From Fidelibacterota bacterium (GTDB lineage: Bacteria; Fidelibacterota; UBA8477; JABMPR01), in contig JAERTG010000032.1 in assembly GCA_016845065.1 (NCBI GenBank), forward strand, positions 62,001 through 126,000: DNA of 64,000 bases, in the 5' to 3' direction. This document shows positions 32,813-53,168 of this stretch, piece after piece (the stretch's first letter is position 1; every line of letters begins with the position of its first letter). The notes beneath the pieces were generated by a model that searched no databases, was not told the origin of the DNA, and saw only the letters and a list, made by a program, of their open reading frames with translations. Both the position numbers and the translations under genes were made by a program.

Positions 32813-34474
32813 ATGACATATAATTCCTTTTCCCTCTCCGGAAACATTGTTGATGTACTAAACCAACGCATTTTCCCTGGAACTATTGATATTGAAAACG
32901 GCAGAATTGTGTCAGTCGTTGAACAAGCTGTTTTGGAAACACAATTCATACTTCCAGGACTCATTGATGCACATATTCATATTGAAAGTTCCATGCTGGT
33001 CCCAACCGAATTTGCCAGAGCGGCAGTTGTCCATGGAACGGTAGCCACGGTTTCTGATCCACATGAAATTGCGAATGTCCTTGGAATGCGTGGCGTTGAA
33101 TTCATGTTGTCCAACGCAGAGAAATCACCATTCAAGTTCCATTTTAGTGCCCCGTCCTGTGTACCTGCAACTCCATTCGAAACTGCTGGTGCAGAGCTTT
33201 CGGCATCTGAAATCGAAGTGTTATTACAACGTTCTGATATTGTGAGTCTTTCCGAGATGATGAATGTACCCGGAGTGTTGAATGATGCCGCGGATGTGAA
33301 GGAAAAGTTAAGACTTGCCAGTGTAGCAGGGAAGGTTGTTGATGGTCATGCACCTGGTTTAAGGGGAGATGCAGTTAAGAAATATGTTGGTGCAGGAATC
33401 ACCACTGATCACGAATGCTTCAGCCTAGCAGAAGCTCATGAAAAATTATCGCTGGGGATGCAAGTACAGATTCGTGAAGGGTCCGCTGCCCGCAATCTTG
33501 ATGATCTGATTCCACTCCTCAATGAGCATTATGAGAACTGTATGCTTTGCAGCGACGATAAACATCCCGATGATCTGGCAGAAGGTCATATAAATGAGAT
33601 GGTGAAACGAGCTATCGCTGCAGGTGTGGATCCACTCAAGGTTTTATGGAGCGCAACTGTTACACCTGTGAAAACTTATGATCTGGAAGTGGGTCTGTTA
33701 CAGGAAAACGACCCTGCTGATTTTGTAATCGTTGATAGCATGACAGAGTTCAACATCCTCAGCACATATATCGGTGGAAACCTCCTTGCAGAGAATGGCA
33801 AAACAATGCTGGAGTCAGTCCCCGTCGTACCAATCAATCAATTTGAAGCAGAATTACAAGACGCTGATAACTTTAAAATTAAAGCAAAACAGCCAGAAGT
33901 ACCTGTAATTGAGGTGATAGATGGGCAGCTGGTAACCAGAAAATATTCCTGGAAACCAGATCTTAGTGTTGAGGGATATATTGAGACAAATTTGGATCAA
34001 GATATTTTAAAAATCGCAGTATTAAATCGATATTCACTTTCAAAGCCAGCCGTTGCTCTAATTAGAAACTTTGGTTTAAAGGACGGTGCTATTGCTTCCT
34101 CTGTAGCTCATGATTCACACAATATTGTTGCTGTCGGTACCTCAGATGAAAGTCTGGCAAGAGCCATCAACCTGATCATCGAAAACAAGGGGGGTGTTTC
34201 AGCCGTCACTGGCAGAAATGATCATGTTTTACCTCTTTCAGTTGCAGGGATTATGAGCGATGACGATGCCTTTAAGGTGGGCAATAGCTATGGCGATATG
34301 GATGATATTGCCAAAGCCATGGGGTCAAACCTAAGTGCCCCATACATGACGCTTTCATTTATGGCACTCCTGGTGATTCCAGATATCAAGCTGAGTGACA
34401 AAGGGCTTTTTGACGGGGAAACTTTCCAATTTCTCGATGTCTTCGAGTTCCTAGGTGATAATAAGCCCATATGA
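32813..34474 (+). CDS. ade: Adenine deaminase
   Basis: LPGLIDAHIHIESSMLVPTEFARAAVVHGTVATVSDPHEIANVLG; GHAPGLRG; CSDDKHPDDL. Confidence 0.95.
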   Translation: MTYNSFSLSGNIVDVLNQRIFPGTIDIENGRIVSVVEQAVLETQFILPGLIDAHIHIESSMLVPTEFARAAVVHGTVATVSDPHEIANVLGMRGVEFMLSNAEKSPFKFHFSAPSCVPATPFETAGAELSASEIEVLLQRSDIVSLSEMMNVPGVLNDAADVKEKLRLASVAGKVVDGHAPGLRGDAVKKYVGAGITTDHECFSLAEAHEKLSLGMQVQIREGSAARNLDDLIPLLNEHYENCMLCSDDKHPDDLAEGHINEMVKRAIAAGVDPLKVLWSATVTPVKTYDLEVGLLQENDPADFVIVDSMTEFNILSTYIGGNLLAENGKTMLESVPVVPINQFEAELQDADNFKIKAKQPEVPVIEVIDGQLVTRKYSWKPDLSVEGYIETNLDQDILKIAVLNRYSLSKPAVALIRNFGLKDGAIASSVAHDSHNIVAVGTSDESLARAINLIIENKGGVSAVTGRNDHVLPLSVAGIMSDDDAFKVGNSYGDMDDIAKAMGSNLSAPYMTLSFMALLVIPDIKLSDKGLFDGETFQFLDVFEFLGDNKPI

Positions 34475-36735
34475 GCCAATCTACACAGATAATAGGCCAA
34501 CGGCTCAAACGCCTTGACGCCCGAGGGAAAACCACGGGTGAAACAAAATTTATCACCGACATAAAGGTCGAAAATATGCTACATGCCGCTCCTGTTTACT
34601 CTAAGGTGGCGTATGGCAAACTACTGGGAATTAATACTGATGTGGTTGAGAATGATCCTGATTTCGTCGCCTTTTTCTCAGCCAAGGACATTCCCGGTGA
34701 AAATCAGGTTGGTGTTATCCTTGAAGATCAACCTCTTATTGCTGAAAATATTGTTCGATATGTTGGAGATAGCGTTGGAATCCTTGTAGCCAATACTGCT
34801 GAGGCAGCTCAACGCCTCTCAAAACTCGTCAGTGTAAAAATCGAAGCTTTTACTCCGATTTTTTCCATAGATGAGAGTCGCGATGCTAAAGAAAACCTTA
34901 TCCATGACACCAACTTGGCTTGTCAGCATCAAGTAAAGCGCGGAGATCCAGAAAAAGCATTTGCTGAAGCGGTCCATGTGATTGAAGCGAGGTTTGAGAC
35001 ACCTTTTCAAGAGCACTACTATCTTGAACCTCAGGGCTGCATTGCCTTTGTCACACCAGCAGGGGGAATTGAAATTCTTGGTTCAATTCAGTGTCCCTTT
35101 TATGTTCAAAAAGCCGTTGCAAAAGCTCTGGACATCCCCTTCTCAAAAATTAGAGTGGAACAGGCCCCTACTGGCGGTGCATTTGGCGGTAAGGAGGATA
35201 TTCCCTCAGAAACCTGCACACGGGCAGCTCTGGCAGCTTTGATTCTCAATCGACCAATTAAAATGGTCTACAATCGTATTACGGATATCCAACTTACCAG
35301 CAAACGTCACCCTTTTCAAATGCATTACAAGGTAGGTGTTTCCAAAACCGGAAAGTTATTGGCGGCGAAAATCAAACTTGAGGAAAATGCCGGAGCGTAC
35401 GCAACTCTATCCTCGGTCGTTTCTTATCGGTCAGCTATGCAGGCTCTGGGACCATATGTCATTGATAATATCTCCGTAGAGTCGAATTCATATTATACAA
35501 ATTTACCTCCAACAGGTGCTTTTCGAGGCTTTGGATCACCCCAAGCAGCCTTTGGGCATGAACGGATGATGGATGTTATTGCAACAGAACTTGATATGGA
35601 CCCCATTGAACTCCGTCTAATTAATATTGTGAAACTCGATACACATACGCTTACTGGTCACCATTTAAAAAGCAGTGTCGGAGCTGAGGAAACTCTAAAA
35701 ACGGCAGCGGATGCCTGTGATTGGAACCATCGCGAAATGAGTCAAGATGAGCGTTGGAAAACCGGGTATGGGGTTTCTCTGATTCATTATGGCAATTGTC
35801 TCGGTGCCGCAGGTTGGTTTATGGATGGTAGTGGTGTCAAGATCAAACTTCATAGGGATGGCTCCATATCAGTTGCCTTTGGGCTCATAGAAATGGGTCA
35901 GGGCGCGCTTACCGTGGTCCAGCAAATGACAGCAGAAGCTCTGGGAGTTGAACCGGGAAGAATAACCGTATTACCTACAGATACAGATCAGGTTCCTGAT
36001 AGTGGTCCTTCAGTCGCCAGTCGGAATGTCGTCATGACTGGCAATGCTATACGTAACGCAGCTGCGAAATTATTACCGGTGCTCAAAGAAGCCGCCGCTG
36101 AACTCATGCAATGTGATCTGAATGAGATAGTCTTAGAACAGGGAAAAATAAGCAATATCAGGAATAGTGAAATGCTGAGTTTTTCAGAGCTAAGTAATTA
36201 TCTCTATCTGTCAAACCGTCCCATGGATGTGTTGGGTTGGTGGCATGTTCCAGAACTTGATTATGATGCAGAAAATGGAACAGGTGAAGCTTACTTTACC
36301 TATTCATATGCCACTCAAATCGCCCGAGTAAAAATAGATACTTACACCGGTAGAGTAATGGTTGATAAAATTTGGGCTTCACATGATGTGGGGAAAGCCA
36401 TTAACCCGGCTGGATTAGAAGCTCAAATTGAGGGGGGTACCGCACAAGGAATTGGCTGGGCGCTTACGGAAAATTTTAAGGTGGTCGAAGGTGAAGTCGT
36501 CACCGACAATCTCACAACTTACCTTTTACCAACTGCGCTAGATGTGGGTGAAATCGAATCGATTCTGGTAGAAGATCCTGAACCTGAGGGTCCTTGGGGT
36601 GCGAAAGGCATCGGGGAACCGGCCATCATCCCAACAGCTGCAGCGATTGCCAATGCCGTAAGTAACGCTTTGGGGCAATCAGTTGCTCAGATTCCCATAA
36701 TACCGGAACACATTTTAGAAATGGTAGGTGATTGA
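34471..36735 (+). CDS. Xanthine dehydrogenase-type molybdopterin-binding subunit (set 1)
   Basis: GGAFGGKEDIPSE; GAFRGFGSPQAAFG; C-terminal WGAKGIGEPAIIPTAAAI. Confidence 0.92.
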   Translation: MSQSTQIIGQRLKRLDARGKTTGETKFITDIKVENMLHAAPVYSKVAYGKLLGINTDVVENDPDFVAFFSAKDIPGENQVGVILEDQPLIAENIVRYVGDSVGILVANTAEAAQRLSKLVSVKIEAFTPIFSIDESRDAKENLIHDTNLACQHQVKRGDPEKAFAEAVHVIEARFETPFQEHYYLEPQGCIAFVTPAGGIEILGSIQCPFYVQKAVAKALDIPFSKIRVEQAPTGGAFGGKEDIPSETCTRAALAALILNRPIKMVYNRITDIQLTSKRHPFQMHYKVGVSKTGKLLAAKIKLEENAGAYATLSSVVSYRSAMQALGPYVIDNISVESNSYYTNLPPTGAFRGFGSPQAAFGHERMMDVIATELDMDPIELRLINIVKLDTHTLTGHHLKSSVGAEETLKTAADACDWNHREMSQDERWKTGYGVSLIHYGNCLGAAGWFMDGSGVKIKLHRDGSISVAFGLIEMGQGALTVVQQMTAEALGVEPGRITVLPTDTDQVPDSGPSVASRNVVMTGNAIRNAAAKLLPVLKEAAAELMQCDLNEIVLEQGKISNIRNSEMLSFSELSNYLYLSNRPMDVLGWWHVPELDYDAENGTGEAYFTYSYATQIARVKIDTYTGRVMVDKIWASHDVGKAINPAGLEAQIEGGTAQGIGWALTENFKVVEGEVVTDNLTTYLLPTALDVGEIESILVEDPEPEGPWGAKGIGEPAIIPTAAAIANAVSNALGQSVAQIPIIPEHILEMVGD

Positions 36736-36736
36736 G

Positions 36737-38047
36737 ATGGATCAACTTTTATTGCACAATTTGAACATCATAGATCCCTTTGGTGAAAGAGAGTTTCTGG
36801 AGCATGCTTCCATACTCATTGAAGACGAAGTAATCAAGTTTGTTGGTCGTGGCTATTCCCATGTCGACTTCGAAGGGCATATTCTTGACATGAAGGGTAA
36901 AATCGTTTTACCTGGAATCATCAATGCTCACACCCACTTATACTCAACACTGGCTATGGGTATGCATCCACCCCGGAAATCACCAAAAAATTTCGTTGAA
37001 CATCTCCAGGAAGTTTGGTGGAAACTCGATCGCGCACTGGACAAGGAATCTGTATTGGCATCTTTTGAGGCCGGGTTAATGGATTGTATACAAAATGGTA
37101 CTACAACTATTATCGATCATCATGCCAGTCCAAACCTCGTCGATGGTTCATTAGATTTGCTGGTAAATACAGCTGGATCATTTGGAGTAAATATTAGTGT
37201 CTGTTTCGAAAGTTCTGACAGAAACGGTGAGGCCAATTTCATGGATGAACTGTCGGAAAATATCCGTACCATTAAAAAATATGCCTCAAATCCATACGTT
37301 TCCCCGCGTATGGGTTTACATGCATCTTTCACACTTTCCGATGAATCATTAGAAAAAGTAAGCAAAGCTCTACAGGGACTACCTGAATGCGGTATTCATA
37401 TTCATGTTGCTGAAGATCTTGCAGATGAGAAGGATGCCCAGGGTAGAGGATATCGCTCAGTTATACAGCGGTTGGAAAAGTTTAATCTGCTTTCAAATCA
37501 GTCGCTGATAATTCACGGTATTTTTATGACTCGGGAGGATCGACATCTCCTGCTTAAACATGGCTGCAAACTTGTCCACAACCCAACCTCAAATGCCAAT
37601 AATCAGGTTGGTGTCCTGGAGACAGAGATTATCGAATCCATGGGACCAGGACTAGGGACTGATGGCATGCAAAACAATATGCTCAAGGAGGCCAAGGAAG
37701 GAACATTGGTCAGAGCTGCAACAGACAGCCCCTCAGTTAATTATCTTGAGCTCCTCTTTCAGAATAATCCAGATATTGCAGTAAAGATTTTTGGCAAATT
37801 AATCGGACACATCGAAGAAGAGGCACAGGCTGATCTGGTTTTTTATGATTATGATCCACGAACAGAGTTGAATACTGACAACTTTAGCTCTCATCTACTT
37901 TTTGGATTTGGAAAACCTTCAGATGTCATGACACGTGGGATATTTCGCCTCCGTAACCACCAATTGGTAGATATGGATGAAGCCCGAATTCGTGAGAACA
38001 GTCGCAAGCAAAGCAAACGACTTTGGTCCGCAATGAAAGCACTCTAA
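36737..38047 (+). CDS. ssnA: SsnA-like amidohydrolase
   Basis: LPGIINAHTHLYSTLAMG; EVWWKLDRALDKESVLA; TTTIIDHHASP; matches recalled E. coli SsnA motifs. Confidence 0.88.
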   Translation: MDQLLLHNLNIIDPFGEREFLEHASILIEDEVIKFVGRGYSHVDFEGHILDMKGKIVLPGIINAHTHLYSTLAMGMHPPRKSPKNFVEHLQEVWWKLDRALDKESVLASFEAGLMDCIQNGTTTIIDHHASPNLVDGSLDLLVNTAGSFGVNISVCFESSDRNGEANFMDELSENIRTIKKYASNPYVSPRMGLHASFTLSDESLEKVSKALQGLPECGIHIHVAEDLADEKDAQGRGYRSVIQRLEKFNLLSNQSLIIHGIFMTREDRHLLLKHGCKLVHNPTSNANNQVGVLETEIIESMGPGLGTDGMQNNMLKEAKEGTLVRAATDSPSVNYLELLFQNNPDIAVKIFGKLIGHIEEEAQADLVFYDYDPRTELNTDNFSSHLLFGFGKPSDVMTRGIFRLRNHQLVDMDEARIRENSRKQSKRLWSAMKAL

Positions 38048-38063
38048 GGCAAAATAGAACCAT

Positions 38064-39293
38064 TTGATAAAAGGATACAGAATGAATATTGATTTTCAGC
38101 AGATACTCACACGGGCAGAGCAATATCGACCCGAAATTTCCAGGTTTTTACGGGATATGATTGCAATTCCTAGCGAGAGTTGTCAGGAAGAACTTGTGGT
38201 TCAACGGATAAAAGTAGAAATGGAAAAGGTCGGTTTTGATAAAATCGAAATTGATGAGATGGGAAATATCTATGGAACCATGGGTCATGGCACCCACGTT
38301 ATCGCCATGGATGCTCATATCGATACTGTGGGTGTTGGAAATCTTGAGAATTGGAGTGTAGATCCTTATGAAGGTTTCGAAGATGATGAAATCATCATGG
38401 GCCGTGGTGCTTCTGATCAAGAAGGTGGTATGGCCAGTATGGTTTATGCTGGGAAGATCATTAAAGACCTCGGTCTAGAAGGTGACTACACACTTGTGAT
38501 AACCGGAACAGTCCAGGAAGAAGATTGTGACGGATTATGCTGGCAGTACATCATGGATAACAAAAAGATTCAACCTGAATTTGTGGTAAGCACCGAACCA
38601 ACCTCATGCAGAGTTTATAGAGGTCAACGGGGGCGTATGGAAATCAAGGTTACAACCTCAGGAATCAGTGCTCATGGCTCTGCCCCGGAGCGGGGAGACA
38701 ATGCTATCTACAAGATGGCACCCATTCTTCTGGAACTTCAAGAATTAAATACTCGTCTGGCCGACCATGACTTTCTTGGAAAAGGTTCACTAACAGTATC
38801 AGAGGTGTTTTTTACATCACCCTCTCGTTGCGCAGTGGCCGATGGGTGTTCAATCTCTGTGGATCGCCGTCTCACCGTGGGAGAGACAGCCGAATCAGCC
38901 ATGGATGAAATCAGGAACCTCCCCTCAGTAAAGGCTGGAAAAGCTACTGTGGAGATGTACGATTATGAACGACCAAGTTATACAGGTTTTAGCTACCGAA
39001 CCGAAGCTTACTTCCCAACATGGTTAATAGAGGAAGATCATGTTGCAACCAGCTCGCTGGTTGAAGCCTACAAAGGGTTGTTCCTAGAGAATCCTGTAGT
39101 TGATAAGTGGACCTTCTCTACAAATGGTGTGGCAATTATGGGGAAATATGGTGTGCCTTGTATTGGTTTCGGCCCCGGAGCGGAGGAGGAAGCCCATGCT
39201 CCCAACGAAAAAACCTGGAAAGATCATCTGGTAAAGGCTGCAGCCATGTATGCTACAATACCACTAACGTATATAAAAGTGTTGGACGAGTAA
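38064..39293 (+). CDS. ygeY: YgeY-family M20 hydrolase (ATG 38082 also possible)
   Basis: [55 protein letters not shown]; near-verbatim to recalled YgeY. Confidence 0.95.
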
Positions 39294-39433: not shown

Positions 39434-40591
39434 ATGAAAGCACATATAAATAGAATCAAAGAATTGGACCTGAGCAACTACGGGAACGATTTTCTGCTTA
39501 CCTGGAAAAAGAATAAGAAAGAGCTGGAAGCCACCCTCCTCTTAGCTGAATTACTGAGGAAACGTCATCGGGAGGGTAAACCGAATCTGGTTTTCGACTC
39601 TGGATTGGCAGTTTCAATCTTCAGAGACAATTCAACACGTACGAGGTTTAGCTTTGCTTCAGCTGCCAATGCCCTGGGACTGGCAGTCTCAGATATGGAT
39701 GAAGAAAAATCTCAGGTTTCCCACGGTGAAACCGTACGTGAAACAGCCAATATGATTTCTTTCATGACTCGTGTTATTGGCATCCGAGACGATATGTATC
39801 TCGGTGAAGGGCACAGCTATATGAGAGAAGTGTCAGCTGCCGTTCAGGCTGGATATGAGGAAGGGGTTTTACACAACAGACCAGGACTAATCAACCTGCA
39901 GTGCGACATTGATCATCCTACCCAGAGTATGTCCGACCTGGCCATGTTAAAAAATTATTTTGGATCCCTGGACAACCTCAAGGGTAAAAAGATTGCCATG
40001 TCCTGGGCATATTCTCCCAGTTATGGTAAACCCCTCTCTGTTCCTCAGGGGATCATTGGACTTCTCACACGCTACGGAATGGATGTCACTCTGGCACATC
40101 CAGAAGGCTATAATCTCATCCCCGAAGTCGTAAAATTAGCAGATAAACAGGCCCAGGTCTCAGGTGGATCCTTCAAAACAACCAATAGTATGGATGAGGC
40201 TTTTTCAGGCGCTCATATTGTTTATCCAAAATCCTGGGCACCTTTCCAGGTTATGGAGGAGAGAACATCATTGTTAAAACAAGGTGATCAGTCCGGCTTA
40301 AAAGATCTTGAGCAAAGCTGTCTGGCTAATAACGCTAAATTCACAGACTGGGAATGTACCGAAGATAAAATGAACCTTACAAATGATGGTAAGGCTCTGT
40401 ATATGCACTGCCTTCCAGCTGATATCACAGGGGTAAGCTGTAAACAGGGTGAAGTAAGTGCATCTGTATTTGATCGCTACAGAAAAGACACTTACATGGA
40501 AGCCAGTTATAAACCCTTTATCATTGCTGCAATGATGTTCTTAACTGGCTTAAAAAACCCACAAACTGCGCTTGATAAATTAAATACTTAA
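39434..40591 (+). CDS. ygeW: YgeW-type knotted carbamoyltransferase
   Basis: SIFRDNSTRTRFSFASA; HGETVRETANMISF; LQCDIDHPTQSM; MHCLPADITGVSC. Confidence 0.95.
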   Translation: MKAHINRIKELDLSNYGNDFLLTWKKNKKELEATLLLAELLRKRHREGKPNLVFDSGLAVSIFRDNSTRTRFSFASAANALGLAVSDMDEEKSQVSHGETVRETANMISFMTRVIGIRDDMYLGEGHSYMREVSAAVQAGYEEGVLHNRPGLINLQCDIDHPTQSMSDLAMLKNYFGSLDNLKGKKIAMSWAYSPSYGKPLSVPQGIIGLLTRYGMDVTLAHPEGYNLIPEVVKLADKQAQVSGGSFKTTNSMDEAFSGAHIVYPKSWAPFQVMEERTSLLKQGDQSGLKDLEQSCLANNAKFTDWECTEDKMNLTNDGKALYMHCLPADITGVSCKQGEVSASVFDRYRKDTYMEASYKPFIIAAMMFLTGLKNPQTALDKLNT

Positions 40592-40632: not shown

Positions 40633-42096
40633 ATGAACACCGATCAAATTCTTAAAAATACGATTCAACGCTGCAAAGAGAAGAATATCATTTTGCCAAC
40701 ATATAAGCAAATGGCAAACCCTGACTTGATTCCCGAAGGCATCAAAGCTGAGCTTTCCAAGATTGGATTATGGGATCTAAATCCGCGAAATTTATTTCGA
40801 CTCAGCTGGCAAAATGAACCTGTTCCTACAGGTGGTGGGTTCGGTGATGTCAATTACATCGAATTACCACCCGAATTAACCGGAGTTAAGGCTAGAATTG
40901 TTGTACTCATTGGAAAATTCTTCCCCACAGGCGCTCATAAAGTTGGTGCAACCTTCGGTCCGTTGGTCGAAAAACTTATTTCAGGACAATTTGATCCAAC
41001 CCGTCAAAAGGCACTCTGGCCTTCGACAGGAAATTATTGCCGCGGTGGTGCATATGATGGCTACCTCCTGGGTTGCCCATCCATTGCAGTCCTTCCTGAG
41101 GAGATGTCAAGAGAACGATACGAATGGCTGGAAAAAGTTGGCGCTGAGATCATCCGTACTGAAGGCGGTGAAGCAAACGTAAAAGAAATTTATGATAAGG
41201 TAAAAGAGCTTGAAGCCGAGCGTGGTGATGAGATTGTCACCCTGAATCAGTTTGGCGAGATTGGGAATCCGCTCTGGCATTATGCAGTGACCGGACGAGC
41301 CATGGAAAAGGTTTTTAATGGATTAAACTCAGGAGCTGACCGATTCAGTGCCTTATTCCTCACCCAGGGATCCGCTGGTACCTTGGGATCAGCCGACTAT
41401 TTAAGGACTATTTTTCCAGGCATCAAAGTTGGAGCTGGTGAAGCGCTTCAAGTGCCAACACTGCTCCAGAATGGTTATGGCGCACACCGCATTGAGGGAA
41501 TTGGTGACAAACATGTTCCATGGATCCACAATATGAAGAACATGGACATGGTGATCGGGATCGATGACAACATCTCCATGAATTTGATTCGACTCTTCAA
41601 TGAAGCTGACGGTCATGCATTGTTGAAAACCCATGGAATTGATCCGCGATTGGTAGCCAAATTGGACTATCTGGGAATCTCCAGTATCGCTAATATTGCT
41701 GGTGCCATCAAAATGGCGAAATACTACGAATACAATGAGCAAGATGTGATCTTTACCGTTGCCACGGATTCGATGGACATGTATCAGTCCAGACTAGGTG
41801 AACTCAATCAGGAGCATGGCAACTATTCAGAAATCAGGGCAAATATAGATTTTGAGCGCTTCCTATTAGGCTTAGACGATGAAGGGGTTCTCGAACTCAA
41901 TTATCGCGATAAGAAGCGCATGCACAATTTGAAATATTTTACCTGGGTAGAACAGCAGGGCAAAACAGTCGAAGAACTGGATGCCCAATGGTATGATGAC
42001 AGCTACTGGTCATCAAAATTTGCTCTGGCCGATGAGTGGGATGAGAAGATCGAGGCGTTTAATGCTGAGACGGGTCTTCTAAAGCAATATGTCTAG
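40633..42096 (+). CDS. Fold-type II PLP enzyme (TrpB/cysteine-synthase-like), in the slot occupied by ygeX in E. coli
   Basis: FFPTGAHKVGATFG (candidate PLP Lys); WPSTGNYCRGGAYDGYLLGCPSIAVLPEEMSRERYEWLEKVGAEII; lacks recalled YgeX sequence features. Confidence 0.8.
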   Translation: MNTDQILKNTIQRCKEKNIILPTYKQMANPDLIPEGIKAELSKIGLWDLNPRNLFRLSWQNEPVPTGGGFGDVNYIELPPELTGVKARIVVLIGKFFPTGAHKVGATFGPLVEKLISGQFDPTRQKALWPSTGNYCRGGAYDGYLLGCPSIAVLPEEMSRERYEWLEKVGAEIIRTEGGEANVKEIYDKVKELEAERGDEIVTLNQFGEIGNPLWHYAVTGRAMEKVFNGLNSGADRFSALFLTQGSAGTLGSADYLRTIFPGIKVGAGEALQVPTLLQNGYGAHRIEGIGDKHVPWIHNMKNMDMVIGIDDNISMNLIRLFNEADGHALLKTHGIDPRLVAKLDYLGISSIANIAGAIKMAKYYEYNEQDVIFTVATDSMDMYQSRLGELNQEHGNYSEIRANIDFERFLLGLDDEGVLELNYRDKKRMHNLKYFTWVEQQGKTVEELDAQWYDDSYWSSKFALADEWDEKIEAFNAETGLLKQYV

Positions 42097-43367: not shown

Positions 43368-43868
43368 ATGTTACATCACCCCAACCCTCATCAATTTCAG
43401 CTGGAACTCACTATCAATGGCAAGCTGGTTAAGCGGGAGATTCCAACTCATCTTCGGCTTTTGGATTTTCTTAGGGAGTATCTGGGTCTTATGGGGAGCA
43501 AAGAAGTTTGCGGAGAAGGTGAGTGTGGTGCATGCACAGTGATTCTCAACGGTCAAACGGTTAATTCATGTCTCATTCTTGCCGTGGAAGTTCACGGTGG
43601 ATTCATTATCACTATCGAGGGATTATCTGATACCCGTGAACTTACTGAAATGCAACAGGCATTTGAAGATCACCATGCCGTCCAATGTGGTTATTGTATA
43701 CCGGGAATGGTTCTCACAGGTGAAAAACTTCTGGAACGCAATCCCCATCCCACCAGGGCTGAGATCAAGTATGAATTGGCTGGCAATATCTGTCGTTGTA
43801 CGGGATATCATAAAATAGTGGATGCCATTGAAGGGGTTAAAGACCCAGATCAAGGTGGTTTAGAGTGA
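43368..43868 (+). CDS. Xanthine dehydrogenase-type [2Fe-2S] subunit (set 1)
   Basis: CGEGECGACTVILNG; QCGYCIPGMVL; GNICRCTGYHKI. Confidence 0.93.
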   Translation: MLHHPNPHQFQLELTINGKLVKREIPTHLRLLDFLREYLGLMGSKEVCGEGECGACTVILNGQTVNSCLILAVEVHGGFIITIEGLSDTRELTEMQQAFEDHHAVQCGYCIPGMVLTGEKLLERNPHPTRAEIKYELAGNICRCTGYHKIVDAIEGVKDPDQGGLE

Positions 43869-44698
43869 AATTCTATCAACCCACCTCAATTCGAGAATAT
43901 TTCGAGCTTAGTTCCAGCCTGACGGATAAGACAGCAATGCTGTTAGCTGGAGGTACAGATCTGATGCCTCGTTTTGAAAGAGGAGAAATCCTGCCTGATC
44001 ATCTCATTGATCTAAAAAAGTTGTCTGACCTTTATCAGGTCATTGTCAGGGATGAATTCATCCAGATTGGAGCATTGACCAGTATACAGACTCTGGCTGA
44101 AAATCAATTACTTAGGAATGAATTCACAGCCATCCAAATGGCAGCACATGATTTTGCCGGTGCTCAAATCCGTCATCGCGGAACCATTGGTGGTAATATC
44201 GTTAATGCATCCCCAGCAGGTGATTTATTACCTGGGCTCTATGCCTTTGGAGCTACACTCACTCTCATCGGTCAAGCGAGTGAGCGACAGGTAGCCATCC
44301 AGGATTTCATACTGGGCCCGGGTAAAACTGCTTTGAAACCCCATGAGATTTTAGTGGCTATTAGACTGGATCGGAATCATTTCGAATCTAGTTTTCAAAA
44401 GGTCGGTCTCCGTCAATCCATGGCCATTTCGGTTGTGAATCTGGCCTTTGTATACTTAAAAAAGGGTGAAGTCTATCAACATCTGAAAATCGCTTGTGGA
44501 GCAGTGGCACCCACAGTGGTCGCTCTGGATAAATTGACCAGTACTATTATGGATAAAACCAGTAAGCCTGAGGACTGGTCCCAGTTAATTGAGGCAGACA
44601 TATCACCGATAGATGATATCAGAGCGACAGCAAGATATCGAAAACTGGTTATTCCAAATCTGGTTAAGGCTTTCCTGAATGGAAAATTATATGAGTAA
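43865..44698 (+). CDS. Xanthine dehydrogenase-type FAD-binding subunit (set 1)
   Basis: LLAGGTDLMPRFERGE; GAQIRHRGTIGGNIVNASPAGDLLP. Confidence 0.92.
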   Translation: MKFYQPTSIREYFELSSSLTDKTAMLLAGGTDLMPRFERGEILPDHLIDLKKLSDLYQVIVRDEFIQIGALTSIQTLAENQLLRNEFTAIQMAAHDFAGAQIRHRGTIGGNIVNASPAGDLLPGLYAFGATLTLIGQASERQVAIQDFILGPGKTALKPHEILVAIRLDRNHFESSFQKVGLRQSMAISVVNLAFVYLKKGEVYQHLKIACGAVAPTVVALDKLTSTIMDKTSKPEDWSQLIEADISPIDDIRATARYRKLVIPNLVKAFLNGKLYE

Positions 44699-44972: not shown

Positions 44973-47900
44973 ATGAACGATAGACTCTATCCTGTCTCCA
45001 TTCAGCATCTAATCTCCTGGATGCTATCCGAGATTAAAAGTGACCAGCTGTTTGGGATTCAAAAAGATCAATTTTTCACTCCTGATAGTGCAGATCCATT
45101 TCGCATGCACCGGTACGGACAAATGCTGGAAACGCCAATTGGGGTAGCGGCTGGTCCCCATACTCAGCTCTCCCAAAACATCGTGGCAGCCTGGTTGTGT
45201 GGAGCTCGATATATGGAGCTCAAGACGGTTCAGACACTCGATGAGCTGGAGGTTAGCAAGCCCTGTATTGATATGCAGGACGAGGGTTATAATTGTGAAT
45301 GGTCACAGGAACTAAAATTGAAGCAGTCGCTGGATGAGTATCTCAATGCCTGGATCGCAATTCATGTACTTAAAGATCACTTCGGATGGCATTCAAGTCA
45401 GGGTGTCGGTGTAATTTTTAATATGAGCGTAGGCTATGATCTTGATGGGATCATGAAAGCCAATGTCCAACATTTCATGGACCGCATGGAAAACAGCCAG
45501 GATTTGCTTGATGATAAACTGAATCTTGTCGAGACCATTTACCCCTCTATCCACAGGTTGAATATTCCTCCTCGAATGACAGATAACATCACACTTTCCA
45601 CTATGCATGGGTGTCCCCCAGATGAGATCGAACGCATTGCCACCTATCTCATCAAAGAACGAAAATATCATACAGCAGTAAAACTGAATCCCACCTTGTT
45701 GGGACCAGACCAACTACGTCGGATATTGAATCATGATTTAGGCTATGAGGCTTCCATTGTCCCAGATGAGGCATTTGACCACGATCTGAAATATCCTGAT
45801 GCCTTAAAGCTCATTTCCAACCTTCAAGCTCACGCAGATGAAACTGGTGTAGATTTTGGATTAAAACTGACCAATACTCTAGAGGTTCAAAACCACAGAC
45901 CTGTTTTTCCTGAGAATGAAACCATGATGTATCTTAGTGGTCGAGCACTCCACCCTATAAGTATTAACCTTGCAGCCAAACTGCAAAATGACTTCAGTGG
46001 AAAACTAGATATTTCTTTTTCTGCAGGTGCAGATGCTTTCAATGTGGCTGATATTCTGGCATGTAATCTACGTCCAGTAACTACCTGCACGGATGTGTTA
46101 AAACCTGGCGGTTATGCGCGACTGGGTCAATATCTGGACAATCTAAGGCAAGCCATGTTGGAGGTCGAAGCCCGCAACCTGGATCAGTTTATCACGGGAA
46201 ATGGTGAAACCGTTCAGGATGTGGATGAAGCCGGGTTGAACAAGCTGTCTCATTATGCAGAAAGCGTCATTCACAACCGACATTATCATAAACACAGTCA
46301 CCATTTTGACTCAATAAAAACCAATCGCAAACTCGGGGCTTTTGATTGCATTTCAGCTCCATGTATAGATGCCTGCGCCGCCGATCAAAATATCCCGGAA
46401 TATCTATATCACACATCACAGGGTGATTTTTCCCAGGCGTTTGAAGCCATTCAGGATACCAATCCCCTCCCAGGTGTTACCGGTAATGTATGTGACCATT
46501 TGTGTCAATTAAAGTGCACTCGGAATAATTATGACACGCCTTTGTTGATACGTGAGATAAAACGTTTTGTGACTGAGCAAGAGATAAAAAATGCTGATCG
46601 CGCTGCAATCCCCCTTGGTGAGCATAGAGTAGCAGTCATCGGTGCTGGCCCTGCTGGTTTATCCTGCGCTTACTTTTTAGCTAAACAAGGTATCATGGTT
46701 GATGTTTATGAGAGTAAGTCATTTGTGGGAGGCATGGTTTCTGGTGCTATCCCAGAATTCAGGCTCAGTGATGAAACCATTGATCTCGATATTGATGTGT
46801 TAAAAAAATTAGGTGTCAATTTTCACTTTGACAGTCCAGTGGGTCCTGAACTTTACCAGCAAATCCAAGTGACAAGTGATGATATCTTTATAGGGGTTGG
46901 TGCTCAGCGCGCATTGAAACTAGGCATCGATGGAGAAACACTTGAAGGTGTCTTGAATCCATTGGATTTTCTTGCAGATGTGAGGTTGGGAGCTCGTCCT
47001 GACCTGGGAGAAAACATTGCCATCATTGGGGGTGGAAACACGGCCATGGATGCAGCCCGCACGTCGCTTCGGTTGGCAGATGAGTCAGCAACAGTTAGTG
47101 TAATTTATCGAAGAACCATGTCAGAGATGCCAGCCGATATTGATGAAATCGAAGCTGCGCTGACAGAAGGCATCACCTTCCATGAACTGGTAGCACCATT
47201 GAGTTTTGAAGGAGACAGCCAGGTTAAGCAGATTCATTGTCAGAAGATGGAATTGGGTGATCCTGATGACAGCGGTCGCCGCCGACCAGTACCTCTACAT
47301 GGTGAATTTCTGAAACTCCCTGTGGACACCGTGATTCCAGCAATTGGTCAAGCAATTAATGTGGATTTTATTGGTAAGGATGATCTTCAAGTAGACTATG
47401 AAACGTGTATTACGACTGTTCCCCATGTCTATGCCGGTGGCGATGCCGTGCGGGGAGCGTCCAGTGTCATTAATGCCATTGGAGATGGTCAGAAAGCCGC
47501 CCGACATATTCTTCGCAGTATCGAAGCATTTCCTGAACACCCTGAAAATGCTCCACGAATCATAACTATAGATGAATTAAAGCGAAAAGCAGCTGTGAGA
47601 GAATATGGGATTACTCCACCCCTGGCTGATCCCGACCCGTCTAAAGAATTTCCAGAAGTTCATCGGACCCTCACCGAAGAAGAAGCCATAGCAGAAGCCA
47701 GTCGCTGCCTCTTGTGTGACGATTATTGCAGTGTCTGTGTAGGGGTTTGCCCCAACCTGGCAAACCTCACATACATGGTTCAACCTGTTGCATATGATGT
47801 ACATCTGGCAACACGGGATGGTGACGAAGTTTCATTAAGAACCACTGGAAAACTTGATCTCACCCAGGAGCCTCAGATATTAAACATTGGGGACTTCTGC

Positions 47901-48248
47901 AATGAGTGCGGTAACTGCACCACCTTTTGTCCTACAGCAGGTGATCCGTATTTGGACAAACCGCGATTACATTTATCTAAGAGTAGTTACAATGAATCTG
48001 AATCTGGATATTTGATTAGTGAGAATAGTATTCGATTCAAAGATAACAAGGTTGAAATGCATGTTTCGTTAGTCGATGATGAGTACCGATTTCAATCTAC
48101 ACAGGGACAAATCAATATTGATTCTAAAGTAAAATCCATCAATTCGGTTGAGTTTTTTACTGGATACAAAGACATTAGAACTCAACCCGCCCTTGAGATG
48201 ATTGTACTATTTGAGAACTTGACTAACCACCCTATGTTAAAGAAGTAG
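44973..48248 (+). CDS. ygfK: YgfK-like oxidoreductase (DHOD-like + GltD-like + 4Fe-4S domains)
   Basis: GVAAGPHTQLSQNIVAAWLCGARYMELKTVQTLDELEVSKPCID; GPAGLSCAYFLAKQG; CNECGNCTTFCPTAGDPY. Confidence 0.93.
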   Translation: MNDRLYPVSIQHLISWMLSEIKSDQLFGIQKDQFFTPDSADPFRMHRYGQMLETPIGVAAGPHTQLSQNIVAAWLCGARYMELKTVQTLDELEVSKPCIDMQDEGYNCEWSQELKLKQSLDEYLNAWIAIHVLKDHFGWHSSQGVGVIFNMSVGYDLDGIMKANVQHFMDRMENSQDLLDDKLNLVETIYPSIHRLNIPPRMTDNITLSTMHGCPPDEIERIATYLIKERKYHTAVKLNPTLLGPDQLRRILNHDLGYEASIVPDEAFDHDLKYPDALKLISNLQAHADETGVDFGLKLTNTLEVQNHRPVFPENETMMYLSGRALHPISINLAAKLQNDFSGKLDISFSAGADAFNVADILACNLRPVTTCTDVLKPGGYARLGQYLDNLRQAMLEVEARNLDQFITGNGETVQDVDEAGLNKLSHYAESVIHNRHYHKHSHHFDSIKTNRKLGAFDCISAPCIDACAADQNIPEYLYHTSQGDFSQAFEAIQDTNPLPGVTGNVCDHLCQLKCTRNNYDTPLLIREIKRFVTEQEIKNADRAAIPLGEHRVAVIGAGPAGLSCAYFLAKQGIMVDVYESKSFVGGMVSGAIPEFRLSDETIDLDIDVLKKLGVNFHFDSPVGPELYQQIQVTSDDIFIGVGAQRALKLGIDGETLEGVLNPLDFLADVRLGARPDLGENIAIIGGGNTAMDAARTSLRLADESATVSVIYRRTMSEMPADIDEIEAALTEGITFHELVAPLSFEGDSQVKQIHCQKMELGDPDDSGRRRPVPLHGEFLKLPVDTVIPAIGQAINVDFIGKDDLQVDYETCITTVPHVYAGGDAVRGASSVINAIGDGQKAARHILRSIEAFPEHPENAPRIITIDELKRKAAVREYGITPPLADPDPSKEFPEVHRTLTEEEAIAEASRCLLCDDYCSVCVGVCPNLANLTYMVQPVAYDVHLATRDGDEVSLRTTGKLDLTQEPQILNIGDFCNECGNCTTFCPTAGDPYLDKPRLHLSKSSYNESESGYLISENSIRFKDNKVEMHVSLVDDEYRFQSTQGQINIDSKVKSINSVEFFTGYKDIRTQPALEMIVLFENLTNHPMLKK

Positions 48249-48256
48249 TATTCAAT

Positions 48257-49651
48257 ATGTCAACTTTACTCATTAAAAACCCGCTCTGTGTTGCAACCAT
48301 GAATGATTCACGCGATGAATTTTCCAATGGGCATATCCTTATTGAAAATGGAGCAATTGCTTCAATTGGACCAGAGAACCTGCATGTTCAGGCAGATAGA
48401 ATAATTGATGCTACAGATATGGTGATTACTCCAGGGTTCATAAATACCCATCACCACCTCTATCAAACCCTCACTCGAAACATTCCCCTAATGCAGGACC
48501 AACCACTTTTCTCGTGGTTGACCAATCATTATGAAGTATGGCGAGAACTCACGACGGAGGCAGTTGAGGTGAGCACCCAAATCGGATTGCTGGAATTAAT
48601 GAAAAGTGGCGTAACGACCAGCTCTGATCATTTATATCTATTCCCTTCCAAAGCCAGTCCAAAACTCATCGATATTGAAATAGAGGCGGCAAAAGGGCTT
48701 GGTGTTCGGTTTCAACCAACACGAGGTTCCATGTCGCTTGGAAAATCCAGGGGCGGTCTGCCACCTGACGATGTGGTCCAAACCGAGGAAGTGATTCAGA
48801 AAGATACTGAACGATTACTGGCTAAATATCATCAGGACTCTGATGGTGCCATGGTCCGGATTTCTCTCGCTCCCTGTTCACCCTTTTCTGTTACAACCGA
48901 ACTTATGAAGCAAACGGCTGCTTTTGCTCAAAGTAATGGTCTTCAAATCCATACACATCTTGCAGAGACTCTCGATGAGGAGACTTTTTGTCTGAAGAGT
49001 TTTGGATTGCGACCAGTAGGTCTCATGGAGGAATTGAATTGGCTTACCTCAAACTCCTGGTACGCTCATTCTGTGCATTTGAATGATGAGGAGATCAAGC
49101 TAATGGGGGAAAAGCAGGTAGGAATATCACATTGCCCCACCTCAAATATGCGCCTGGGTTCAGGAATTGCCAGAATCCATGAACTTCTGGAGGCTGGAGT
49201 CAATGTAAGCCTGGGTGTTGATGGCAGCGCTTCAAATGATTCTGGTGACATGCTGCTTGAAATGCGTAATGCCATGCTCATATCAAGGTTGAGAGAACAA
49301 CAATTCTGGCTTACTGCTCGCGATGTTCTGAGCATGGCTACTCGAGGTGGGGCAGCTGTCCTTGGTCGAAGTGATATTGGAGAATTGAAAGAAGGTAAAC
49401 GAGCTGATCTAGCGCTGTTTAACATGGCTGGTACAGGGCAAGCGGGCAGCCAGTCAGACCCAATTGCAGCCTTGATTTTCACTACGAGGCAGCGTCCCGT
49501 GGATGTTCTGGTCATTGATGGTAAAATTGTCCTCGATCAAGGTGAATCGAAAGTTGATGAGCCAAAACTCGCAATAAAGCATAATAAACTTGCTGCTGAA
49601 ATGCTCCATCAAGCTGAACAGCGCACAAAAATAGACTTTTCTAGTCCCTAA
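48257..49651 (+). CDS. 8-oxoguanine deaminase / hydroxyatrazine-hydrolase-type amidohydrolase
   Basis: GFINTHHHLYQTLTRNIPLMQDQPLFSWLTNHYEVWRELT; VDGSASNDSGDMLLEMR. Confidence 0.85.
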   Translation: MSTLLIKNPLCVATMNDSRDEFSNGHILIENGAIASIGPENLHVQADRIIDATDMVITPGFINTHHHLYQTLTRNIPLMQDQPLFSWLTNHYEVWRELTTEAVEVSTQIGLLELMKSGVTTSSDHLYLFPSKASPKLIDIEIEAAKGLGVRFQPTRGSMSLGKSRGGLPPDDVVQTEEVIQKDTERLLAKYHQDSDGAMVRISLAPCSPFSVTTELMKQTAAFAQSNGLQIHTHLAETLDEETFCLKSFGLRPVGLMEELNWLTSNSWYAHSVHLNDEEIKLMGEKQVGISHCPTSNMRLGSGIARIHELLEAGVNVSLGVDGSASNDSGDMLLEMRNAMLISRLREQQFWLTARDVLSMATRGGAAVLGRSDIGELKEGKRADLALFNMAGTGQAGSQSDPIAALIFTTRQRPVDVLVIDGKIVLDQGESKVDEPKLAIKHNKLAAEMLHQAEQRTKIDFSSP

Positions 49652-49666
49652 CAAGCAGGTCAAATC

Positions 49667-50398
49667 ATGTGGTCTTCCATAGAACAAATTATCAAACCTG
49701 ATAGCCTGGATGAAGCCCAGGTGCTGATCCAGCAAAGCGATGCCGAACTCTTTGCAGGTGGAAGTTATCTTGTCGCTCAAAAAGAGGGTGAAATAAAAAC
49801 CCTGATTGATATAAATCATTTATTAGATAATAATGTCGAAACCCTTGGCAATGATCTTTCAATCGATTCGGGTTGCACACTACAACATTTACTTAGCCTG
49901 TGTGGTGGCAAACTGAGCCAGGTTATTCAGGCATCCTGCCCATCAAAAAATATTCGTAACCAGCGTACTATCGGCGGTGAAATCGCCAAGGGTAGACCAG
50001 ATTCTGATCTGCTGATTTTTTTGTTTGCTGCTAGAGCAAAATTGCAGCTAAGTCATACAGTCAAGCCCATAGATTTATCCGACTGGGATGGAAATGGTAT
50101 CATCACCAGGATAATTGTTCCCACTCACAAGGTGAAACTGGAACGTGTTGCCGTCCTCGATTCAGCACCTGCCTACATCATCGTTGGATCCAATGAGTCA
50201 GACGATCAAATCACAATCAGTGTCGGTGGTAAAATTACCAAAATTGTTTTCTATCAGGCCAATCCTGAGCCAGAAGAACTTGAAGTACGTAATTTCCTGG
50301 ATGAAGTGGAAGCTGCTTTCACAGATGATCATCTAGGAACAGCCTCATATAAGCGTCATGTTGTTGGTGCGCTCTTACAAGAGATGGTGGGAGTATGA
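49667..50398 (+). CDS. YgfM-like FAD-binding subunit of molybdenum hydroxylase (set 2)
   Basis: ELFAGGSYLVAQKEGEIKTLIDI; NIRNQRTIGGEIAKGRPDSDLL. Confidence 0.82.
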   Translation: MWSSIEQIIKPDSLDEAQVLIQQSDAELFAGGSYLVAQKEGEIKTLIDINHLLDNNVETLGNDLSIDSGCTLQHLLSLCGGKLSQVIQASCPSKNIRNQRTIGGEIAKGRPDSDLLIFLFAARAKLQLSHTVKPIDLSDWDGNGIITRIIVPTHKVKLERVAVLDSAPAYIIVGSNESDDQITISVGGKITKIVFYQANPEPEELEVRNFLDEVEAAFTDDHLGTASYKRHVVGALLQEMVGV

Positions 50399-50877
50399 TG
50401 AAAGTACAATTCGAACTAAATGGTCGCTTGGTTCAGACTGAAAGTGCGCCTGGCAGCACGCTCATGGAGGTCCTTCGCTCCAGAGAACTTTATAGCATCA
50501 AACATGGCTGTGATCACGGGGAATGTGGTGCATGCACTGTCCTGATTGATAGTAAAAGCGTGAATGCCTGTCTGATTCTGATGCATACTGTGGATGGTCG
50601 AAAAATTGAGACTCTGGAGAATTTCTCAGATCATAAATCAATGCATCCTATTCAAAAGGAATTCCTCCATGAAGGAGCTGCCCAATGTGGATATTGCACA
50701 CCTGGTATGATCCTGTCGGTGGAGGCATTGAAAAGAGAGAGAGTTGAACTGGATGATTTCGCTTTAAGAGACGCTCTGAATGGGAATCTTTGTCGATGTA
50801 CGGGTTATGTAAAACCCGTTCAGGCTGGTTTAAATGCCCTCAAGATTCCCCAGGATAAGGGTGGGGGTGGCTCATGA
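50395..50877 (+). CDS. [2Fe-2S] subunit of molybdenum hydroxylase (set 2)
   Basis: CDHGECGACTVLIDS; QCGYCTPGMIL; GNLCRCTGY. Confidence 0.93.
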   Translation: MMKVQFELNGRLVQTESAPGSTLMEVLRSRELYSIKHGCDHGECGACTVLIDSKSVNACLILMHTVDGRKIETLENFSDHKSMHPIQKEFLHEGAAQCGYCTPGMILSVEALKRERVELDDFALRDALNGNLCRCTGYVKPVQAGLNALKIPQDKGGGGS

Positions 50878-53168
50878 AAGTGATTGGAAAAGATCATCAA
50901 CGCGTTGATGGTCAGGCTCTGGTTAGAGGTAATCCAGTTTTTGCTGATGATATCAAATTAAATAATCTTCTTCATGTTAAAGTTTTACATAGTCCCGTTG
51001 CCCATGCAAAAATAGTCAGTATCAATGTTTCTGAAGCTTCTGCACTTGAGGGTGTTGAAGCCATTTTCACACACAAGGATTTCAAACCTCACTACTACAC
51101 AACTGCTGGTCAGGGCTATCCAGAACCCGGTCCTCGCGATATGCGTATTCTAGATTCGAAGGTACGATTTGTTGGGGATCGAGTCGCCTTTGTAGCAGCG
51201 GAGACCCTTGAAATTGCGGAGCAGGCTCTTGAGCTCATAAAAGTAGACTATGAGGAATTGCCCTGCCTGTTTGATATGGAAGCGGCCATGGCCTCAGATG
51301 TAACAATTCATTCTCACCCTGATAAGACGGGTCTCCATGATGCGGCACATAATGTTGCTGCTCATCTGGATGCTGAGATTGGAGATGTGGATAAAACTTT
51401 GGAGTCATCAGAGTTCGTATTCGAAGGCACCTACAGCACCCCATTTGTGCAAATGGCATCCATAGAGCCACATATTTCCCTCACCTGGCTAGATGACAAT
51501 AATCGGTTGGTGATTAGAACCTCAACCCAGGTTCCATTTCATGTGCGTCGCATTGTGGCTGAGGTCCTGGACATTCCAGTCGGTAGAATTCGTGTGATAA
51601 AACCACGGCTAGGCGGTGGATTCGGTGGAAAACAGGAAATTCTTAATGAAGAGCTGGTGGCTGCTGTAACCTTAAAAACCGGTAGACCTGCACGTATTGA
51701 ATACACCAGAGCTGAGGAATTATTTGCAGCAAGATTGAGGCACCCAGAACTGGTTAGCTTCCGACTCGGTTTTGATAATAACCAAATTTTAACTGCTATT
51801 GATCTAAACATTCTGGAAAACTGCGGAGCTTATGGTCCCCACGCCCTGACGGTAATGTCGGTTACTGCTCAAAAAGCCTTGAGTATGTACAAAGCGCCCT
51901 GTATTCGAGTGAATGGAGATGGCGTATATACCAATCTTCCAATCGGTGGAGCCTATCGCGGGTATGGTGCGCCTCAGGCTTTCTTCCCCCTTGAAAGCCT
52001 CATGGATGAAGCAGCTGAAGCCATGGGTATTGATCCAGTTGAATTGCGACTCAAGAATGTCTTCAAAGTTGGGGACGATATTCCCATAGCTAAAATTCTG
52101 GGTGAGGGTCGTGAAGGTTTTCCCATGGTACTCTACAGCACTGAAATAGAAGCGTGTTTGCAGGAAGGTCGCAAACTTAGCAATTGGGATTTACTTCGAT
52201 CAAAATCTAAAACTGGTCGATATCGACACGGTATTGGTGTGGCTGTGGCAGGCCAGGGATCTGGGATTCCAGGGATTGATATGGGTGCTGCCTTTATCAA
52301 GATGAATGAAGATGCCAGTTTCAACCTTCAAGTTGGAGCAACCGATTTGGGAACAGGTTCTGATACTGCTCTGGCCCAAATAGCGGCTGAAGTCCTGGGT
52401 GTAGCTGTGGATAAAATAATAGTCTATTCTTCTGATACAGATATGACACCCTTTGATACTGGCGCATATGCTTCCAGTACAACCTATATTTCTGGATCTG
52501 CAGTAAAAAAAGCAGCAGAGAATTGTAAAATGATGATTCTGGATCAAGGAAGATTACTCTTGGATGCGCCTGAGGCAGAGATTGATGGCACACAGGTTGT
52601 GGATTCTAATGGAAATAGAATATCCTTCCAGGATATCTGTACAAAAAGTTTTTACACTGAGGAGCAAAAACAAATCATGGGTACAGCTTCCCACATGAGC
52701 TATGATTCTCCTCCCCCTTTTAATGCAACCTTTGCTGAAGTGGAAGTAGATACCTTCACTGGAACCGTACGGGTTATTAAAATTGTATCAGTAACGGATG
52801 CGGGTCAGATTATCAATCCCAAAATGGCGGAGGGACAAATTGAAGGCGGAATCCCCCAGGCACTCGGTATGGCTCTCTCAGAGTTCATGCCCTTTGATGA
52901 GAAGGGTCGTTTCCTCAATCTGGACTTTAACAGCTATCATATTTACACTGCCAAGGATATGCCTGAGATGGTTGTCCGGTTTGCAGACTCACATGAACCC
53001 ACAGGTCCATATGGGGCGAAGGCCGTTGCAGAAATTCCAATCAACGCTCCTGCACCGGCAGTTACAAATGCTGTTTACAATGCCGTTGGTGTTCGGATAA
53101 AACACCTGCCAATCCAGCCAGAAGTGATTTTAGGGTCAATACACCGAAATGAGGTAATTGACCCATAA
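50874..53168 (+). CDS. Molybdopterin-binding subunit of XDH-type hydroxylase (set 2; XdhD-like Mo domain)
   Basis: LGGGFGGKQEI; GGAYRGYGAPQAFFP; C-terminal GPYGAKAVAEIPINAPAPAV. Confidence 0.9.
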   Translation: MKVIGKDHQRVDGQALVRGNPVFADDIKLNNLLHVKVLHSPVAHAKIVSINVSEASALEGVEAIFTHKDFKPHYYTTAGQGYPEPGPRDMRILDSKVRFVGDRVAFVAAETLEIAEQALELIKVDYEELPCLFDMEAAMASDVTIHSHPDKTGLHDAAHNVAAHLDAEIGDVDKTLESSEFVFEGTYSTPFVQMASIEPHISLTWLDDNNRLVIRTSTQVPFHVRRIVAEVLDIPVGRIRVIKPRLGGGFGGKQEILNEELVAAVTLKTGRPARIEYTRAEELFAARLRHPELVSFRLGFDNNQILTAIDLNILENCGAYGPHALTVMSVTAQKALSMYKAPCIRVNGDGVYTNLPIGGAYRGYGAPQAFFPLESLMDEAAEAMGIDPVELRLKNVFKVGDDIPIAKILGEGREGFPMVLYSTEIEACLQEGRKLSNWDLLRSKSKTGRYRHGIGVAVAGQGSGIPGIDMGAAFIKMNEDASFNLQVGATDLGTGSDTALAQIAAEVLGVAVDKIIVYSSDTDMTPFDTGAYASSTTYISGSAVKKAAENCKMMILDQGRLLLDAPEAEIDGTQVVDSNGNRISFQDICTKSFYTEEQKQIMGTASHMSYDSPPPFNATFAEVEVDTFTGTVRVIKIVSVTDAGQIINPKMAEGQIEGGIPQALGMALSEFMPFDEKGRFLNLDFNSYHIYTAKDMPEMVVRFADSHEPTGPYGAKAVAEIPINAPAPAVTNAVYNAVGVRIKHLPIQPEVILGSIHRNEVIDP

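Follow-up and report, generated by a model that had tools for sequence, protein, structure and literature searches.

PLP487 and ThrCl, two PLP-dependent enzymes that may stand in for YgeX in reductive uric-acid gene clusters

In the reductive uric-acid pathway, uric acid is converted to 2,8-dioxopurine by XdhD, reduced by YgfK and ring-opened by SsnA and HyuA; at the end of the pathway the ureido groups are removed by YgeW and YgeY, and YgeX cleaves 2,3-diaminopropionate (DAP) to pyruvate (PMC12507026, PMC12990295). YgeX is unusual in that it acts on D- and L-DAP alike (PMC12507026, PMC4000059), and the configuration of DAP in the pathway has been raised as an unsettled question (PMC12990295). 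A published network marks YgeX by the domain PF00291 (PMC12507026). Published pathway variants concern YgfK/UacX and YgeW/UacY, not YgeX (PMC12507026, PMC12990295); likewise, our literature search on the uric-acid pathway found variants of YgfK and YgeW described and none of YgeX.

A uric-acid gene cluster and its missing YgeX

The window analysed here (the whole 64-kb stretch of DNA) comes from contig C32 (62001-126000) of a Neomarinimicrobiota genome, and MAGs of Candidatus Neomarinimicrobiota are its nearest named relatives. It carries homologues of xdhD, ygfK, ssnA, ygeW and ygeY together, the combination by which we recognise a reductive uric-acid cluster, with the SsnA-like and XdhD-like genes scoring below the cut-offs of their own models (Table 1). 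All genes between 32813 and 53168 are on the + strand, and most overlap their neighbours or lie a short distance from them; the context is shared by related loci, and the gene set matches the ygeW-xdhD region of E. coli. Judged by sequence, the adenine deaminase at the start of the run would be the entry point of adenine into the pathway. Further genes of the run, for a second xanthine-dehydrogenase set and an enzyme of the 8-oxoguanine-deaminase type, suggest that oxidised guanine feeds the pathway as well.

Table 1. Genes of the uric-acid cluster in the window, with the evidence for each assignment
Feature	Position	Strand	Evidence
Adenine deaminase	32813..34474	+	TIGR01178 606 bits, over cut-off
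Molybdenum hydroxylase large subunit (XdhA/XdhD-like)	34471..36735	+	pucD/XdhA models ~480 bits, below cut-offs
SsnA-like aminohydrolase	36728..38047	+	NF005540 408 bits (cut-off 444), TIGR03314 390 bits (cut-off 455.5)
YgeY M20-family hydrolase	38064..39293	+	TIGR03526 686 bits, over cut-off
YgeW knotted carbamoyltransferase	39434..40591	+	TIGR03316 640 bits, NF005538 659 bits, both over cut-off
PLP487, fold-type II PLP enzyme, 487 aa	40633..42096	+	Profile searches, alignments, AlphaFold model, Foldseek
ThrCl, threonine-synthase-like PLP enzyme, 413 aa	42124..43365	+	TIGR00260 192.5 bits, alignments, motif counts, co-occurrence
Xdh-type [2Fe-2S] subunit	43368..43868	+	Sequence, neighbourhood clusters
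Xdh-type FAD subunit (YgfM-like)	43865..44698	+	Sequence, neighbourhood clusters
YgfK, reductive dearomatisation enzyme	44973..48248	+	TIGR03315 932 bits, over cut-off 835
8-oxoguanine-deaminase-type aminohydrolase	48257..49651	+	NF006055 609 bits, over cut-off 532
Second molybdenum hydroxylase (FAD, FeS, Mo subunits; XdhA-like)	49667..53168	+	NF043082 715 bits for Mo subunit

HyuA is absent from the window, and a hydantoinase-family gene on another contig of the source genome (C82) is a candidate for it (324 bits; cut-off 393). Apart from YgeX, every pathway enzyme has a candidate in this genome: XdhD-like, YgfK, SsnA-like, YgeW and YgeY proteins in the window and the hydantoinase-family protein on C82. 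The run of genes on C82 (L284:3881-8353) comprises YqeC-like, MocA, YqeB-like, XdhC and the hydantoinase-family gene, and likely provides HyuA together with molybdenum hydroxylase maturation for the uric-acid pathway.

The exception is YgeX. A preliminary description of this locus had reported none elsewhere in the window, and the absence extends to the entire source genome (~93% complete): the best scores of the DpaL models are 21.5 bits for TIGR01747 (cut-off 274) and 42.4 bits for NF006058 (cut-off 276), and these weak matches are to the neighbouring ThrCl gene. The YgeX slot by ygeW is taken, as that description had noticed, by a 487-aa PLP protein, here PLP487. Its ORF is intact, with an ATG start and no internal stop, and it begins 41 bp downstream of ygeW and ends 27 bp upstream of ThrCl.

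Sequence and fold of the two enzymes

Both motifs first quoted for PLP487 occur in it, TGAHKVGA spanning residues 99-106 and STGNYCRGGAYDG residues 131-143. K103 and S131-G139 are invariant in an alignment of 23 diverse relatives; among 98 homologous ORFs, PSTGNYCRGG occurs in all 98 and GA/SHKVG in 94. K103 aligns with the PLP lysine of CysK/CBS enzymes, and STGN with their substrate-carboxylate loop. Pfam places PLP487 in the PALP superfamily only (PF00291, 53.6 bits; gathering score 35), and against curated models it scores 95.7 bits for CysK, 39 for SbnA and 17 for DpaL. Its AlphaFold model (pLDDT 88.4, pTM 0.91) finds CysK, beta-cyanoalanine synthase and CBS as best Foldseek matches (E 5.5e-17), and the CysK/CBS catalytic fold is recovered with TM-scores of 0.74-0.85 against many CysK structures, normalised by those shorter targets. 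About 80 N-terminal and 100 C-terminal residues fall outside this core, and their conservation is strong (e.g., HNLKYFTWVEQQGK). As modelled, PLP487 is a CysK/CBS-like core with N- and C-terminal extensions of its own, far below every curated model. At least 576 PLP487-related stretches exist in public genomes, and the best 80 of these, from more than a dozen phyla, share 57-89% identity over their full length.

Other assignments were considered. PLP487 is not a cysteine synthase by score, as it does not reach the curated cut-off of 351 bits. The preliminary description had given it a TrpB-like PLP loop and a cysteine-synthase-like segment; the second likeness is borne out by the fold, and the first comes down to one short motif, with no TrpB family among the matches at E<=10. 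It is not a divergent YgeX, in line with the original impression of dissimilarity: the DpaL models give 17.1 and 11.5 bits against cut-offs of 276 and 274, and Thr132 is invariant in the 23 relatives. OrtB, the beta subunit of 2-amino-4-oxopentanoate thiolase, is alike in size and fold type and was set aside as improbable on the models (no such family among NCBIfam matches at E<=10) and on the purine-gene neighbours of PLP487. In YgeX, the DGNHG of the TDGNHG loop, which contains the catalytic Asp120, is present in all 21 sequences compared; in alignments, both PLP487 and ThrCl have Thr at the Asp120 position.

ThrCl passes the threonine synthase model (TIGR00260, cut-off 167.1) and is its sole match in the source genome. 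All five solved threonine synthases carry the Thr of STGNT/D and the Arg of N-x-x-R-(I/L)-EGQK, residues that, in the T. thermophilus structure, presumably hold the substrate phosphate; a literature search for this role of the Arg and Thr found no confirming paper. Neither residue occurs in any of 70 ThrCl sequences, which feature a conserved STGNA loop and an NPxxxEGKK segment lacking the Arg. True ThrCs of the same genome set retain both, in two cases beside ThrCl (G086 and G087). On these residues, ThrCl is probably not a threonine synthase despite its score. The lack of a second threonine-synthase match in the source genome would mean that threonine is made by ThrCl, that the genome has gaps, or that the organism is auxotrophic for threonine.

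Distribution of the pair and of YgeX

Uric-acid clusters that carry the pair are found in Neomarinimicrobiota, Bacteroidota, Cloacimonadota, Spirochaetota, Chloroflexota and Synergistota, among others. Of 49 PLP487 genomes searched with a ThrCl profile, 46 give a match of 422 bits or more; the best score among 15 YgeX-only genomes and 10 controls is no higher than 299 bits, so that ThrCl is present in 0/15 YgeX-only genomes. Nine of ten further PLP487 genomes also encode ThrCl, for a total of 55/59. The four that lack it are G103, G114, G127 and G058, and in the three of these that were checked (G103, G114 and G127) YgeX lies in or near the cluster. A ThrCl gene is also present in 11 of 30 genomes in which PLP487 was not detected; five of the 11 belong to the CysK-bearing family f3 described below, and the other six may reflect assembly gaps.

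Among 98 PLP487 loci, many of them on short contigs, the neighbours are ThrCl (56), carbamoyltransferase (42), YgfK (30), SsnA-type enzymes (~20), carbamate kinase (20), YgeY (16) and allantoinase/hydantoinase-type enzymes (13), and molybdenum hydroxylase genes are usually near. Because these neighbours recur despite the short contigs, PLP487 is a core member of uric-acid clusters. PLP487 genes at L053, L057, L058 and L059 have no purine neighbours. YgeY is over cut-off in 42 of the 60 PLP487 genomes tested, the source genome included, and 18 are without it.

Several clusters are built differently. Family f3 of the Neomarinimicrobiota (five genomes, L242-L246) features the run XdhD-YgfK-SsnA-CysK-YgeY-carbamoyltransferase-ThrCl, with a 324-aa carbamoyltransferase and a short, 654-aa form of YgfK. 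The CysK between SsnA and YgeY has 350 aa and scores 352.6 bits (in L243), just over the cysteine synthase cut-off. Since this CysK fills the place of PLP487, what the clusters have in common is an enzyme of the CysK family together with ThrCl. At L026 (6984-8918), L050 and L060, two different carbamoyltransferases (in L026 an ATCase-like protein of 317 aa and an OTC/YgeW-like protein of 324 aa) and a carbamate kinase stand beside PLP487 without YgeY; at loci of this type both ureido groups are possibly removed by phosphorolysis with a gain of ATP. In two Spirochaetota loci (L255:4793-5791 and L256:11942-12850), a gene that reads as dihydroorotate/dihydropyrimidine-dehydrogenase-like occupies the place of YgfK between SsnA and YgeY/ThrCl, and is perhaps UacX.

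Across many phyla, 3 of 58 PLP487 genomes have YgeX over cut-off, and most PLP487-bearing clusters lack it. In G103 and G127 both enzymes sit inside the cluster, so PLP487 is not simply equivalent to YgeX. The YgeX proteins of PLP487 genomes (L194, L196 and L201) offered no stereochemical clue; they are unaltered at the Lys and at the equivalents of Asp120 and Asp189.

YgeW is encoded by 89 of 394 Spirochaetota genomes, and 62 of these were tested for PLP487 and YgeX along with 18 YgeW-negative Spirochaetota. Among the 62, YgeX alone is found in 15, both enzymes in 22, PLP487 alone in 22 and neither in three. PLP487 is thus present in 44/62 YgeW-positive and 3/18 YgeW-negative genomes (Fisher p 6e-5, kinship ignored), consistent with its proposed co-occurrence with ygeW/ygeY clusters; YgeX is present in 1/18 YgeW-negative genomes. 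Of five YgeX-only genomes examined, four (L162, L165, L166 and L167) have ygeX inside the cluster and the fifth, G477 (L163), has it outside. By contrast, in six of nine examined genomes with both enzymes (G470, G378, G458, G434, G331 and G431), YgeX is away from the purine genes, with PLP487-ThrCl standing beside ygfK-ssnA-ygeY and YgeX elsewhere. YgeX is inside the cluster in the other three (G474, G114 and G127); in G474 the ygeX cluster is complete and the PLP487-ThrCl pair lies apart from it. G412 and G334 encode ygeW/ygeY without YgeX and carry the pair at a different locus. The anti-correlation of PLP487 with ygeX that the preliminary description anticipated is therefore a property of clusters and not of genomes, more than a third of the YgeW-positive set (22/62) holding both.

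Proposed role of the pair

We propose that PLP487 and ThrCl form a two-enzyme module that probably carries out the YgeX step, the conversion of 2,3-diaminopropionate to pyruvate. DAP breakdown by the pair is suggested by the gap in the pathway, the position of PLP487 in the YgeX slot, the pairing, and the complementarity with YgeX. From the presence, fold, conservation, pairing and complementarity observed, we infer substrate, reaction and division of labour. Counting against the module are the threonine-synthase score of ThrCl, the only such match of the source genome, the occurrence of ThrCl without PLP487 in 11/30 genomes, and the PLP487 loci that lack purine neighbours.

In such a module, HyuA, the carbamoyltransferase and YgeY (or a second carbamoyltransferase) would strip both ureido groups to leave DAP, which would form an external aldimine with PLP and lose first its alpha proton, then its beta-amino group; the aminoacrylate would decay to pyruvate and ammonia. 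The two enzymes would share the work on the enantiomers. In the split that we prefer, tentatively, ThrCl, whose distribution is the most exact complement of that of YgeX, would be the main DAP lyase and the CysK-like PLP487 would handle the other enantiomer or feed it to ThrCl. To judge from the exceptional PLP487 genomes in which YgeX is present and ThrCl is not, ThrCl would be the nearer equivalent of YgeX, with PLP487 acting beside it. More speculatively, the D/L-indifferent reaction of YgeX could be divided over two different fold-type II PLP enzymes, each acting on one enantiomer or the two working as racemase and lyase, in a widespread DAP module that would be new to enzymology; either arrangement would account for two enzymes taking the place of one. 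As PLP487 and ThrCl both have Thr at the Asp120 position, the D-isomer step would need another base.

Other readings assign the pair differently. CysK/CBS-fold enzymes such as Fn1055 and yeast CBS, both among the structural matches of PLP487, perform beta-replacements, some with water. The CysK-like enzyme could accordingly swap the beta-amino group of DAP for water to give L-serine, which ThrCl would dehydrate to pyruvate; ThrC-like enzymes are close to serine/threonine dehydratases, and CysK itself takes the place of PLP487 in f3. We regard this sequential route as unlikely, as a dedicated serine dehydratase would be redundant in the many bacteria that have others, and PLP487 with YgeX and no ThrCl (G103, G114 and G127) would be odd. 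Less likely again is the view of the preliminary description that PLP487 alone replaces YgeX; ThrCl would then be a threonine synthase in the operon by chance. The occupied slot and the threonine-synthase match agree with it; however, ThrCl accompanies PLP487 across phyla and no YgeX-only genome, and it lacks the Thr and Arg that true ThrCs keep even beside ThrCl. The probable replacement is by two genes where one had been named, the adjacent ThrCl having been missed.

Cleavage of albizziin (3-ureidoalanine) by one of the pair to pyruvate, ammonia and urea would bypass YgeY. O-ureido-L-serine synthase (3x44) is among the structural matches of PLP487, showing that a ureido group at C-beta can be accommodated by this fold, and the 18 PLP487 genomes without YgeY could be accounted for; the retention of YgeY in the other 42, however, and a second carbamoyltransferase in several of the YgeY-less genomes make this reading very improbable. 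Least probable of all is a role for PLP487 in sulfur or cysteine metabolism, e.g., supplying the molybdenum hydroxylases whose genes are usually near, in place of DAP breakdown. The CysK/CBS-type core would fit, but YgeX-type clusters (L162, L165 and L166) feature the same hydroxylases and no PLP487, and both the YgeX gap and the link with ThrCl would be left unexplained.

The original observation at this locus is correct, and the finding is broader than first stated. The reductive uric-acid pathway is relevant to gout and to urate balance in the gut, and ygeX is used among its markers; many anaerobes complete the cluster without YgeX, and surveys that rely on the ygeX marker undercount them. 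Since PLP487 and ThrCl both match PF00291, surveys equating this domain with YgeX (PMC12507026) would merge three different enzymes. Two uncharacterised PLP families gain a specific candidate substrate, and the finding touches the question of pathway stereochemistry raised in PMC12990295.

In summary, PLP487 shares with CysK/CBS enzymes (TIGR01139, TIGR01137) the core fold and the aligned Lys, xSTGN loop, NQF and HxIEGIG, and differs in its terminal extensions, in TGAHKVG replacing NPxxSxKDR and in its purine-cluster context. With YgeX/DpaL (TIGR01747, NF006058; PDB 4d9g, 5ygr) it has in common the fold-type II PLP class, the place beside ygeW/ygeY and, presumably, the step; unlike YgeX it has Thr at the catalytic Asp120 site, extra N- and C-terminal regions, and a ThrCl partner that is kept or needed. 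ThrCl resembles threonine synthases (TIGR00260; PDB 6cgq, 2zsj, 2d1f, 1uim, 1e5x) in overall sequence, zinc-ribbon-like N-terminus and score, and is distinguished by STGNA for STGNT/D, EGKK for EGQK, no Arg in NPxxxEGKK, an extra Arg205, and pairing with PLP487 or CysK in uric-acid clusters. Relative to the pathway known from E. coli, C. difficile and C. sporogenes, the locus likewise clusters XdhD, YgfK, SsnA, YgeW and YgeY homologues, with a candidate hydantoinase elsewhere; the probable replacement of the terminal YgeX by PLP487 and ThrCl sets it apart.
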